Assembly (NCBI GenBank): GCA_030154265.1
Contig: JASKKH010000008.1
Location: forward strand, 1-64,000
Reading direction: 5' to 3'
Length of the DNA: 64,000 nt
Source: Clostridia bacterium
Lineage (GTDB): Bacteria > Bacillota > DSM-521 > Neomoorellales > Neomoorellaceae
Part shown: positions 45,219-61,871 of the stretch, piece by piece
How positions within the stretch are numbered: position 1 is the stretch's first letter
Layout of the letters: every line of letters begins with the position of its first letter
The notes under the pieces: generated by a model
The model's database searches: none
Told to the model about the DNA's origin: nothing
Seen by the model: the letters and a program-made list of their open reading frames with translations, nothing else
Translations under genes and position numbers: made by a program

Positions 45219-47039
45219 ATGGACTCTCAAAAGCAAAAAGGTTTTTTAAGTCAATTAAGAAACATCTTAACCTATAGACCTCCTAAGCAAAATGCCTTTG
45301 TCTTACCGGAACTTGAAGACGAAGGTAATGAAGGTAATAGTGAAAAAACTAATAAAGGTGATATTGGGGATAAAAGTAATAGTGACAAAAATAATAAGAA
45401 TGAGAGTAGTAGTGTTCAGAGTAAGAAGTCTAAAAAAAATACAAAAAAGCCGATAAGGGCCAGTGAATGGAAACAAATTAAAAGTGAAGATAAAGAAACA
45501 AAAGATAAAATATCTGCAAATATTAATGTAAATCTAAAAGTTATAAAAGAAAAGTTTCATGTACCTGAAAATATCGATGTGATTATCAGGGAATTTAAAT
45601 TGGCTCAAAAAGTTAATGCCTTCATCGTTTTTATTGATGGTATGGTAAATAATGAAGTTATTAATAATTTTATACTCAGGCAGTTGTTAAACCCTTTACA
45701 GTTTAATGGCTATACCAGCGGTTGTATCAATCAATATGTAAGGGAACACGTTCTGGCAGTAGGCCAGACTAAAGTTATTGATAAATACAGTGATGTTGTT
45801 AAACAGGTATTAACGGGAGTTACTGTTCTTTTTATAGACGGTTGCAACAATTGTTTGGCAATTGAGACCCGTGGTTATGAAAAAAGAAATATTGGTAATC
45901 CCGTAACAGAAAATGTTGTGCGCGGCTCTCAAGAGGCATTCACTGAAAATACCAAAACCAGTATTGTTCAGATCCGCAGGTTAATTAAAAATGAAGACCT
46001 TATCCATGAAACTATAGCTATTAATTCAACAGATAACCCTATGGCTTCCATTATGTATATAAAGGGCATTGTTAACCCCAAAGTTGTAGAAGAAGTTAAA
46101 AGAAGGATTAAAAGTATTAAGACTGATCTTATCCTGGGTGAGGGTATACTTGCCCAATTTATAGAAGACCGTCCTTTTATGTTGTTCCCTCAGGTATTAG
46201 CAACGGAACGACCCGATCGGGCTGCCTCCCATATTTTAGAAGGTAAAGTTTTAATCTTTTCGGAAGGATCACCTTTTGCCCTAATTGTCCCGGTTAATTT
46301 TCTGGCATTGTTACATTCACCTGAAGATAGCTCCCTTAGGTGGCAATTAGGGAGCTTTTTACGCCTTATTCGTCTGACCGGTCTTCTTATTGCCTTATTT
46401 ATTCCAAGTTTATATGTCGCTATAACTAATTACCACCATGAAATGTTACCAACAGAATTATTACTAGCCATTACTAGTTCTCGTGAAAACATACCCTTCC
46501 CAACTATTGTTGAAGCACTATTAATGGAAGTATCATTTGAATTTATTCGTGAAGCTGGAATTAGGATGCCGGGCCTAATTGGATCAACCCTTGGTATCAT
46601 AGGAGCATTAATCCTCGGCCAGGCTGCCGTTGAAGCAAACATAGTCAGTCCAATCATGATAATTATCGTCTCGATTACGGGTTTAGGTAATTTTACAATA
46701 CCTAACTATTCTCTTGCTTTTGGGATAAGATTACTTCGTTTCTTCTTTATCTGTATGGCTGGTATCTCAGGTTTTTTAGGTATATCAATAGGTTTTATAA
46801 TTATAATTGCTCTATCTACCAGCATGAAAAGTTTTGGTGTTCCCTTTATGTCCCCTGGCTGGCCACGGACTAAAAAAAGCGCAGATTCTATTATCAGATA
46901 TCCACTGTGGAAACAAGAAAAAAGACCTGATGCAATAAATTCTTTGCACAGGCAAAGACAACCCCAAGTTTCAAGAGGTTGGGTAGTAGATAGTAACCCT
47001 AATAATAAAGGAGGTAATAAAAATGATTCAGGAAGGTAA
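45219..47039 (+). CDS. gerKA: Spore germinant receptor A subunit (GerA/GerKA family)
   Basis: Encodes 606 residues. The first ~100 are hydrophilic and low complexity (Asn, Lys, Ser, Glu runs), longer than in many family members. Two cytosolic soluble subdomains follow (residues ~105-370: FVIFIDGMVNNEVINNFILR-like strands, FIDGCNNCLAIETRGYEKRN, IAQ-type RRLIKNEDLIHETI). Four to five membrane helices span ~375-545 with FPTIVEALLMEVSFEFIREAG. It is the first gene of the receptor operon in the inner spore membrane. CTGGAGGG precedes the ATG. Confidence 0.93.
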   Translation: MDSQKQKGFLSQLRNILTYRPPKQNAFVLPELEDEGNEGNSEKTNKGDIGDKSNSDKNNKNESSSVQSKKSKKNTKKPIRASEWKQIKSEDKETKDKISANINVNLKVIKEKFHVPENIDVIIREFKLAQKVNAFIVFIDGMVNNEVINNFILRQLLNPLQFNGYTSGCINQYVREHVLAVGQTKVIDKYSDVVKQVLTGVTVLFIDGCNNCLAIETRGYEKRNIGNPVTENVVRGSQEAFTENTKTSIVQIRRLIKNEDLIHETIAINSTDNPMASIMYIKGIVNPKVVEEVKRRIKSIKTDLILGEGILAQFIEDRPFMLFPQVLATERPDRAASHILEGKVLIFSEGSPFALIVPVNFLALLHSPEDSSLRWQLGSFLRLIRLTGLLIALFIPSLYVAITNYHHEMLPTELLLAITSSRENIPFPTIVEALLMEVSFEFIREAGIRMPGLIGSTLGIIGALILGQAAVEANIVSPIMIIIVSITGLGNFTIPNYSLAFGIRLLRFFFICMAGISGFLGISIGFIIIIALSTSMKSFGVPFMSPGWPRTKKSADSIIRYPLWKQEKRPDAINSLHRQRQPQVSRGWVVDSNPNNKGGNKNDSGR

Positions 47040-48123
47040 AATCGGAGTCTTTGAAGCAAGCTCCCTGGTCATTTTTATGGTCGCCTCAAAAGCTCTGTTT
47101 GGTGCAGTTCGAGAACTTGTAGAAGCCACGGGGCCAAGTGCGTGGTACACCACTATAATCTCTGGTATTACAGCTTTAATTGGTTTTTGGATTATCATCC
47201 GTTTAATGCAAAGGTTTCCAGGTCAGGAACTTGTATCAATTCTTAAAACGGTGTACGGCAGGATAACAGGCAGCCTCATTGCCCTGATTATCTGTTTCCT
47301 TTACATTTATAACGCTGCCTCTTTTACCAGGGAATTTACGGAAGCAGTTAAAGTATTTGAATACCCTTTAACCCCTCCCAGTTTCATAATGATTCTTATT
47401 CTTTTAGCGGTAATTGTTTTACTATATTACGGTTTGGAAACCACCGCCAGAACCACCAGCTTTTTTACCTGGCCCCTGATTGTTGGAATGATATCTATTT
47501 TTTTTCTTGGACTGCCTTTAGGTAAGCTAACTAACCTCTACCCTCTTTTGGGCCACGGGCTTGACAGAACAATAATTACCGGTTTACTAAGAAGTTCTGT
47601 ATATGGTGAGGTCATAGGGCTTACTATCATCTTAAATGCTCTTCAAGGAATAGAAAACTTCAAAAAGGCCGGTAAACATGGGATTATAATATCTATTATA
47701 ATCATATCTTTAAGTTTATTCATTTACAGCCTTATTTTCCCTTATTCTGTAAGTGTTGAGAATACCATACCACTACTAACATTGACTCGGATAATAGAAT
47801 ACGGCAGGTTTTTCCAACGCTTTGAATCAATTTATATTTTTATATGGTCTGTAGCAGCAACATTAACAACGGCTATAAACTTGTATTTAGCCTTAAGTAT
47901 ATATTGTAAAACCTTTAGAATTAATGACCATAGAGTATTAGTCTTACCTTTATGTATTTTACTTTTCAGTATAGCAATTATCCCTAAAGATATTGTTACT
48001 ATCACTTCAATTTATGTACATTATTTAAGACAATATGGGTGGATTATTTTTATCGGTTTACCCCTTTTAACCCTTATAGTAGCGGCAGTCCGAGGTAAAA
48101 AAGGTGAATCAGCTAATGCGTAA
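47023..48123 (+). CDS. gerKB: Spore germinant receptor B subunit (GerB/GerKB family)
   Basis: Encodes 366 residues with ten predicted membrane helices of the APC amino-acid transporter-like fold. The start overlaps gerKA by 17 bases and has AAAGGAGG upstream. This subunit is thought to bind the germinant directly. Family cues are ASSLVIFMVASKALFGAVRE at the N-terminus, the YYGLETTART loop and the FQRFESIYIFIWSVA helix. The germinant (amino acid or sugar) cannot be predicted. Confidence 0.93.
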   Translation: MIQEGKIGVFEASSLVIFMVASKALFGAVRELVEATGPSAWYTTIISGITALIGFWIIIRLMQRFPGQELVSILKTVYGRITGSLIALIICFLYIYNAASFTREFTEAVKVFEYPLTPPSFIMILILLAVIVLLYYGLETTARTTSFFTWPLIVGMISIFFLGLPLGKLTNLYPLLGHGLDRTIITGLLRSSVYGEVIGLTIILNALQGIENFKKAGKHGIIISIIIISLSLFIYSLIFPYSVSVENTIPLLTLTRIIEYGRFFQRFESIYIFIWSVAATLTTAINLYLALSIYCKTFRINDHRVLVLPLCILLFSIAIIPKDIVTITSIYVHYLRQYGWIIFIGLPLLTLIVAAVRGKKGESANA

Positions 48124-49393
48124 ACTTATTATGGTTTTAATTTTATTAACAGTTATAGCCAGCTGTACCTCAGGTTGTTATGACCAAAGGGAAGTTGATG
48201 AAATGGCCTATGTAATGGCAATGGGCTTTGACAAAGGTACAACTGAAAAATTACGCTTGACCCTGCAAATAATCACCTTCAGGAATCAAGAGGGTGGAGA
48301 ACAAGGTGGGAGACAAAGAGGAGGACAAGGTGGGGGACAAACTGATCAGATTACAGTTGAATGTTCTGCTCTTTTTGATGGCATCAACTTGGCTAATACT
48401 ATCCTTTCAAGACAAATAAACCTGATGCACGCCAAACATATAGTTATTTCAGAAGAACTCGCTCGCAATGGTGATGTTGAAAAATATATCTCCGCTGTTA
48501 TACGTTACCGTCAAATAAGAAGGATAATGAATTTTATAGTAACCAAAGGTAAAGCAGAAGACTTTCTTAAAGAAAATCAACCTTTCATTGGCAATGACCC
48601 ACCTAAAGATATGCAATTACTTAAAAAACAAAGTGCCTATACCAGTTATATTCCTGAAGTTAAGCTTTTTGACTTCTATAATAATGTTAAGTCAACCATG
48701 ATAGATCCTATAGCTATCTTAGCTGGCGTTAACCCCGAAGGAAACCTGGCTGCCGGAAATCTAACAGAAGAATCACTTCAAAGCGGGCAGTACCTGGCAG
48801 GAAAAATACCCCGAGAAGGTGGAACAAAAAAGGAATACTTTGGAGCCGCAGTTTTCCGTGGGGCCAAGATGGTAGGAGAGATTGATGGTAATGGCGTCAA
48901 AATGTATAAAATGGTTCATGGTCTATTTGAAAGAGGATACTTTATCATCAATGACCCATTAGCTCCTGACTACGTAATATCACTGGATGTCCGCCAGAGT
49001 AGAAAACCTTCAATTGAGGTTAAGGTTACAGGTAACGAGCCAAAGATTAATGTTGAAATCTTCCTGGAAGGCGAAATCCTTGCCATTCAAAGTAGAATAA
49101 ACTATGAGGACCCAAAGCAATCACATATTTTGGAAACGACGTTTGAAAAAATAATTAAAGAACACCTGGATAGCCTTATAAAAACCTGTCAACAAGATTT
49201 TAAAGCCGATATCTTCGGTTTTGGTAGATATGCTGCCTTTAGTTTTCCAACTATTGAATCATGGGAAGAATATAACTGGAAAGAAAAATTTCCTGAGGGT
49301 AAGGTTAGTACTAAAGTCAATTTCGTTATAAGGAGAACCGGTATGATAACCAAATCTTCACCTATTGTACCACCGATAGGAGATGTCCAATGA
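48116..49393 (+). CDS. gerKC: Spore germinant receptor C subunit lipoprotein (GerC/GerKC family)
   Basis: Encodes 425 residues from the ATG at 48116 (AAGGTGA 8 bases upstream), overlapping gerKB by 8 bases. A lipoprotein signal peptide ends near SGCYDQREVDEMA, where the Cys would be lipidated. Three soluble domains follow. A Gly/Gln-rich insert at residues ~62-78 (GGEQGGRQRGGQGGGQ) interrupts the first domain and is unusual. Domain 3 has the HLDSLIKTCQQDFKADIFGF helix common to the family. Confidence 0.92.
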   Translation: MRKLIMVLILLTVIASCTSGCYDQREVDEMAYVMAMGFDKGTTEKLRLTLQIITFRNQEGGEQGGRQRGGQGGGQTDQITVECSALFDGINLANTILSRQINLMHAKHIVISEELARNGDVEKYISAVIRYRQIRRIMNFIVTKGKAEDFLKENQPFIGNDPPKDMQLLKKQSAYTSYIPEVKLFDFYNNVKSTMIDPIAILAGVNPEGNLAAGNLTEESLQSGQYLAGKIPREGGTKKEYFGAAVFRGAKMVGEIDGNGVKMYKMVHGLFERGYFIINDPLAPDYVISLDVRQSRKPSIEVKVTGNEPKINVEIFLEGEILAIQSRINYEDPKQSHILETTFEKIIKEHLDSLIKTCQQDFKADIFGFGRYAAFSFPTIESWEEYNWKEKFPEGKVSTKVNFVIRRTGMITKSSPIVPPIGDVQ

Positions 49394-61595: not shown

Positions 61596-61649
61596 AAAAA
61601 ACAATAACCCAGGTGGGTAGGTAACAACACTGAAACCTACCCGCCTGGG
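61596..61649 (-). terminator. Leader terminator (expression platform) of the purine operon
   Basis: On the minus strand CCCAGGCGGGTAGGT and ACCTACCCACCTGGG form a ~14-bp stem with a 12-base loop, then TTATTGTTTTTT. The 5' arm overlaps the final GCCCAGGCGGGTA of the PRPP-type aptamer, so folding of the aptamer and of the terminator are mutually exclusive. Confidence 0.9.
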
Positions 61650-61740
61650 CTTTTATCCCTCCGGTGTAGCACATTAATATGTGCCTGTACCACTCGGTCC
61701 TGTCCACAGCATAACTGTGCGGAACCCTGAGGTACACTTT
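61636..61740 (-). promoter_or_regulatory. PRPP-type riboswitch aptamer (ykkC class, subtype 2)
   Basis: The minus strand carries the ykkC-class landmarks in order: AAAGTGTACCTCAGGGTTCC, a GCACAG/CTGTG hairpin, GGACCGAGTGGTACAGG, a GCACAT/ATGTGC hairpin, CTACACCGGAGGGATAAAAG and CCCAGGCGGG. Subtype 2 RNAs of this class bind ppGpp or PRPP; the purine operon downstream and the guanine aptamer in front argue for PRPP. GTACC near 61735-61731 can pair with the GGGTA at its 3' end to form P1. Ligand choice depends on single bases and is inferred. Confidence 0.87.
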
Positions 61741-61742
61741 CA

Positions 61743-61812
61743 GGCTGTAGCCAGGGCAATTTACGGTTGCCCGGTAGATACTTGTGAGCCATATTCCCAC
61801 AATAATACAGTC
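61743..61812 (-). promoter_or_regulatory. Purine riboswitch aptamer, guanine class
   Basis: P1 is CTGTA/TACAG; P2 is TTGTGGG/CTCACAA closing loop AATATGG; J2/3 is TATCTACC; P3 is GGGCAA/TTGCCC closing loop CCGTAAA. Both loops match the kissing loops of the xpt aptamer. J3/1 reads TGGCTAC: the C at the specificity position predicts guanine-type ligands (U would mean adenine). J3/1 is one base longer than usual and has G instead of the common A before the C. Confidence 0.9.
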
Positions 61813-61842
61813 CGCATTACCAAATATTATTTTGTCGAATCC

Positions 61843-61871
61843 ATAATAACAAAAGGAGTATAACCTGTCAA
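61843..61871 (-). promoter_or_regulatory. Sigma-A promoter of the purine operon
   Basis: TTGACA (61871-61866), a 17-base spacer, and TATTAT (61848-61843) on the minus strand. Transcription would start near 61836, about 25 bases before the guanine aptamer. No PurBox (PurR site) was recognised around it. Confidence 0.85.

Follow-up and report, generated by a model that had tools for sequence, protein, structure and literature searches.

The window, a stretch of 64,000 nucleotides from a member of the Neomoorellaceae (Clostridia bacterium, contig JASKKH010000008.1), carries eleven pur genes that all run in one direction, each scoring above the curated cut-off of its family model, and closed by a terminator hairpin.

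61530-61006, minus strand: purE (TIGR01162, 205.6 bits)
61005-59710, minus strand: purB (TIGR00928, 567.7 bits)
59686-58970, minus strand: purC (TIGR00081)
58856-58605, minus strand: purS (NF004630)
58605-57907, minus strand: purQ (NF002957)
57928-55703, minus strand: purL (NF002290)
55689-54286, minus strand: purF (TIGR01134)
54273-53233, minus strand: purM (TIGR00878)
53190-52576, minus strand: purN (TIGR00639)
52535-50988, minus strand: purH (NF002049)
50949-49693, minus strand: purD (TIGR00877, 563.4 bits)
49614-49574, minus strand: operon-closing terminator hairpin (AAAAAACCTCGG...CCGAGGTTTTTT), read directly, 3' of purD

Neighboring genes overlap or are separated by 0 to 42 bases, except for a gap of 113 bases between purC and purS. 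At this gap (58990-58857, minus strand) lies a diverged second copy of the last purC codons (CAAAAAATTCTTAAATAAAAAGTTAAA and CAAAAGATCCTTAAATAAAAAGGTCAAA, roughly 70 bases from each other), which looks like a duplication of the purC 3' end. The purF product catalyzes the first committed step of the pathway and consumes PRPP. Converging on the purine operon is a spore-germination operon of three genes, of GerXA, permease, and Ger(x)C type (45219-49393, plus strand).

The purE leader holds, in order on the minus strand, a promoter, a Purine aptamer, a ykkC aptamer, and a single terminator, followed by purE itself.

61871-61843, minus strand: promoter-like site TTGACA-17-TATTAT with extended -10 TG (11 of 12 consensus matches)
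61830-61728, minus strand: Purine-class aptamer, guanine type (RF00167, 69.3 bits, E 4e-10, gathering threshold 37)
61814-61806, minus strand: 5' strand of guanine aptamer P1, CGGACUGUA (forms 8 pairs with 61749-61741, interrupted by a single A.C mismatch)
61749-61741, minus strand: shared strand UACAGCCUG, forming the 3' side of guanine P1 as well as the outer portion of the PRPP P0 5' strand
61745-61627, minus strand: putative PRPP aptamer (ykkC subtype 2b) with P0 (own PRPP model R1, 108 bits, E 2e-29)
61742-61640, minus strand: ykkC-fold aptamer, Rfam match Guanidine-I (RF00442, 63.3 bits, E 7e-9, cut-off 63)
61651-61596, minus strand: intrinsic terminator, 5' arm AGCCCAGGCGGGUAGGU (61651-61635), 3' arm ACCUACCCACCUGGGUU (61622-61606), U-rich tail to 61596
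61635-61630, minus strand: P0 3' strand UUUCAG, extending to UUUCAGUGUUGU, located at the terminator loop

The original prediction had named the same four elements in this place, order, and strand, and had made the 5' arm of the terminator part of the second aptamer; both points are borne out, the arm including the P3 letters of the PRPP aptamer and adjoining its P0 letters. The terminator stem consists of 14 pairs and one C.A mismatch, and no terminator was found in the leader between the two aptamers. These had been described as lying a few bases apart. They do adjoin, with no separation at all: the guanine P1 3' strand (61749-61741) continues straight into the PRPP 5' tail, and the aptamers touch. 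The two P1 stems are 4-6 nt apart, depending on where guanine P1 ends; in tandem guanine-PRPP riboswitches as a class, about 5-7 nt separate the P1 stems and a single terminator overlaps the PRPP aptamer. The promoter is the top site among 28 promoter-like sites in a 13-kb scan, with 30 (30.1) expected from shuffled sequence, and the leader folds much more stably than shuffled sequences, its energy having a z of -5.5 against them.

The predicted purine aptamer was recovered in a covariance search, the three-helix purine fold scoring above the Rfam cut-off of RF00167 (69.3 vs. 37 bits). A cytosine at position 74 characterizes the guanine class of these aptamers, the adenine class having U there. 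C74 is found at 61750 and U51 is intact, and the mismatch in P1 falls at the sixth pair. Judged by these letters, the first aptamer is a guanine aptamer.

Assignment of the second aptamer is less direct. At gathering thresholds exactly two Rfam families are found in the whole 64-kb window, Purine and Guanidine-I, both in the leader, and a permissive rescan of the window gave no further credible family. Because no PRPP family model appeared in the Rfam scans of the window, the name Guanidine-I is uninformative on the ligand, and because RF00442 is a guanidine model the match lies only 0.3 bits above its cut-off. A PRPP covariance model was therefore built from 16 G96 PRPP sequences outside the window's family, with G96 invariant in all 16; the window scores 108 bits with it, A96 ppGpp-like relatives 72-92, and three guanidine-I-type controls 36-42.

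The specificity residues, numbered as in the Thermoanaerobacter mathranii structure paper with conserved blocks as the reference points for counting, are U49 at 61692, G96 at 61645, and G104-G105 at 61637-61636. Residue 49 is A in guanidine-I aptamers and a pyrimidine in PRPP and ppGpp aptamers, while residue 96 is G in PRPP aptamers and A, C, U, or missing in ppGpp aptamers (PMC6031431). Relatives were collected from roughly 400 genomes belonging to the phylum and, by pattern scan, from the genome collection, and their ykkC cores extracted; among the 138 whose 3' core could be read, G96 occurs in 131 and A96 in seven. Within the short flanking stretches available, a pur gene lies downstream of 63 of 94 G96 singlets, 15 of 37 tandems, and none of the seven A96 relatives. 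That the second aptamer might instead sense ppGpp or guanidine, with the gate linking guanine either to the stringent response or to stress from guanidine, draws on Guanidine-I being its sole Rfam match and on the finding that the single change G96A converts an aptamer for PRPP into one for ppGpp (PMC6031431). This is very improbable: G96 and U49 are as in PRPP aptamers, the PRPP model scores 108 bits on the window and 41.5 on the guanidine-I control L033, a purine operon lies downstream, and P0, which guanidine-I aptamers lack, is present. Guanidine-I identity was accordingly rejected on G96, U49, P0, and the model scores, and ppGpp as ligand on G96 and gene context. Identity as a PRPP-type aptamer, as originally proposed, rather than one for guanidine or ppGpp, is supported by U49, G96, P0, and the 108-bit score.

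The ykkC core of the window has an extra, family-specific C near P1a (61745-61720; CUCAGGG for CUAGGG, CUCAGGGUUCC for CUAGGGUUCC). The same C occurs in L039, L041, L044-L048, L051, L053, L054, L057, L058, L162, L163, and L167; L168 has U at this position, and L039 is the one genome outside the window's family with the extra C.

The 5' tail of the PRPP aptamer can pair either with the guanine aptamer or with its own 3' end. The P0 helix, CUGAAA/UUUCAG, is extendable to 11 pairs with one bulge, the 5' strand ACAGC-CUGAAA pairing with UUUCAG-u-GUUGU (61635-61624), and seven letters are paired in both guanine P1 and PRPP P0. For one RNA, P0 and guanine P1 were predicted to be mutually exclusive (Knappenberger et al., 2018; PMC6031431), and a 2022 review still gives the structural detail of this exclusion as not established. 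Among 36 tandems, in which 16 distinct versions of the shared strand occur, its partner strands in P1 (5') and in P0 (3') both vary along with it, as in CUGUA/UACAG with UUUCAGuGUUG, CUCGUA/UACGAG with UUUCaCUCG, and CACGUA/UACGUG with UUUCaCACG. Over these 36 tandems, shared strands form on average 8.5 P0 pairs with their own partner and 6.6 with a swapped one; the corresponding means for P1 are 6.9 and 4.7. In a permutation test none of 5000 permutations reached the own-partner value for P1 or for P0 (p = 2e-4 each, the 16 distinct strands not being fully independent lineages). This co-variation supports mutual exclusivity of guanine P1 and PRPP P0.

A co-transcriptional mechanism may be proposed on this basis. 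Transcription would start at the 61871-61843 promoter, and the guanine aptamer would be the first to fold. While the PRPP aptamer is being made, its 5' tail would be able to form P0 with the 3' end of the aptamer, the same tail serving as the 3' strand of guanine P1. Bound guanine would hold P1, blocking P0 and weakening the PRPP aptamer, so that its 3' half is free to form the terminator (OFF). Bound PRPP would hold P0 and P3, occupying the 5' arm and loop of the terminator (ON), even with guanine present. With neither ligand, P0 would be favored and the operon mostly ON, as suggested by computed energies, which are model values that leave out tertiary contacts and ligand binding: for the pre-terminator transcript, -69.5 kcal/mol for the P0 state vs. 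-65.1 for the guanine-P1 state, and for the finished transcript, -98.9 kcal/mol for the terminator state vs. -80.6 for the PRPP state. With P0 favored before the terminator 3' arm is made and the terminator favored in the finished RNA, the choice must fall during transcription.

The tandem of Bacillus megaterium is an IMPLY gate (PMC5912903): genes are switched off only by guanine at low PRPP, and when both ligands are abundant PRPP prevails. A model in which P0 and read-through are the default, guanine shifts the balance to P1 and termination, and PRPP locks P0 would fit this published output. The purE leader is most probably a guanine-PRPP tandem that works like the published IMPLY riboswitch, acting by transcription termination on the eleven-gene purE-purD operon (probability about 0.92). 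On the observed side this reading is based on the elements, family scores, specificity letters, shared strand, co-variation, and operon; that the ligands bind, which way each response runs, and that PRPP overrides guanine would follow by analogy to the B. megaterium and T. mathranii work. The original prediction was supported as to guanine and PRPP aptamers, a shared terminator, and the operon, and erred in its logic: PRPP turning genes on unless guanine is abundant is the reverse of the IMPLY gate of the B. megaterium RNA (PMC5912903). The gate so described, NOT guanine AND PRPP, with PRPP effective only at low guanine, is suggested by the order OFF then ON, and guanine P1, transcribed before P0, could trap the RNA kinetically. 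It is nonetheless a distinctly unlikely arrangement, since a tested tandem with the same architecture is IMPLY, PRPP overriding guanine (PMC5912903), and P0 here is long (11 pairs) and about 4 kcal/mol better than P1 before the terminator is made.

Gene order and the lack of internal signals suggest that the entire purE-purD operon would be under the IMPLY gate. Control of only part of it, with an internal promoter in, for example, the purC region driving the later genes, has in its favor a 10/12 promoter-like site inside purC (59200-59171) and the 113-base gap between purC and purS. It is rather unlikely, promoter-like sites being no commoner than in shuffled sequence (28 vs. 30.1) and the remaining gaps being 0 to 42 bases or overlaps. 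No PurR of the Bacillus subtilis type over the curated cut-off was found in the genome; the best PurR-like protein scores 66 bits, where the cut-off is 258.7, and aligns only with approximately positions 81-234 of the 268-position profile. A loose PurBox pattern (two mismatches) gave 43 matches vs. 49 by chance. PurR control was rejected, PurBox matches being not above chance and no PurR-like protein lying near the cut-off. No second copy of the guanine or the PRPP aptamer was found in the genome either.

Purine genes are the usual targets of tandem guanine-PRPP riboswitches, of which 127 were listed in 2018 (PMC5912903) and 192 by 2022 (PMC9481103). The closest studied counterpart is the B. 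megaterium codA tandem (Sherlock et al., 2018; PMC5912903), in which a guanine aptamer is likewise followed directly by a PRPP aptamer and one terminator. The window differs in lineage, in having purE as first gene with the whole pathway behind it, and in the extra C of its ykkC core. Its shared strand is of ACAG type, the CGAG type being common among the relatives examined. The T. mathranii PRPP aptamer (PDB 6CK5; PMC6031431) shares P0, G96, a pyrimidine at 49, and the predicted P0/guanine P1 exclusion. The Guanidine-I riboswitch (ykkC subtype 1, RF00442) has the same scaffold, and the window lies just above its Rfam cut-off; it has A at the position of U49 and no P0, and with the PRPP model three guanidine-I-type controls score no higher than 36-42 bits. 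The window tandem is a complete, well-supported example of a class published in 2018, with no new mechanism.

The window's family contains 11 tandems, all with the ACAGCCUGAAA shared strand and with purE next, and purB follows purE in all whose examined stretch reaches that far. Other genera of the family have three singlets (L163, L167, and L168) and one hairpin locus, L041 (G001). In a PurE tree the family's tandem carriers group as a single clade (100/98) next to the singlet genera; because the position of the root is uncertain, either a single gain of the guanine half or losses in the sister genera could account for this. At L041, upstream of 1501, the PRPP aptamer and purE-purB are preceded by a plain hairpin (GCAGUUGGCC...GGCAACUGC) where the guanine aptamer would be. 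The 3' strand of this hairpin, GCAGUUG...CAACUGC, lies within the P0 strand, which it occupies more than in all 60 shuffles. It may be suggested, tentatively and at less than even odds, that the guanine half is an exchangeable competitor helix, the L041 hairpin opposing P0 ligand-free and the guanine aptamer being the ligand-controlled version.

A general rule of a competitor hairpin in every singlet PRPP leader was not supported by the shuffle test, such hairpins standing out only in some lineages: over all singlet PRPP leaders there was no excess (mean occupancy 0.55 vs. 0.49 shuffled), and six of 88, a set that includes a few undetected tandems, had P0-strand occupancy at p <= 0.05. The singlets L104, L116, L137, L140, L036, L084, and L102, of family f14 where the genome is listed, have a short hairpin in two parts (CUCGU...CGGG...CCCG...ACGAG or CUUCGUAGGUUCCGGG...) whose end lies in the P0 strand; this hairpin could be a shrunken guanine aptamer. 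In L004, L006, L010, L013, L021, L022, L024, L027, L031, and L032 an A+U hairpin (CGUUAAAA...UUUUAACG) lies directly 5' of the PRPP aptamer and overlaps P0; it is not above chance in the shuffle test. These are bacterial MAGs, mostly labeled Syntrophomonadaceae, with L006 labeled Desulfovibrio.

In this organism, then, an RNA gate with two inputs would control a complete purine pathway encoded in one operon, and the genome has no PurR over the curated cut-off. The value of the window tandem lies in the co-variation result and in its natural guanine-blind relative. Where exclusion had been predicted for one RNA, co-variation makes the exclusive-helix model a pattern shared by 16 distinct strands, and the sister locus L041 with its hairpin may serve as a natural guanine-blind control for it.
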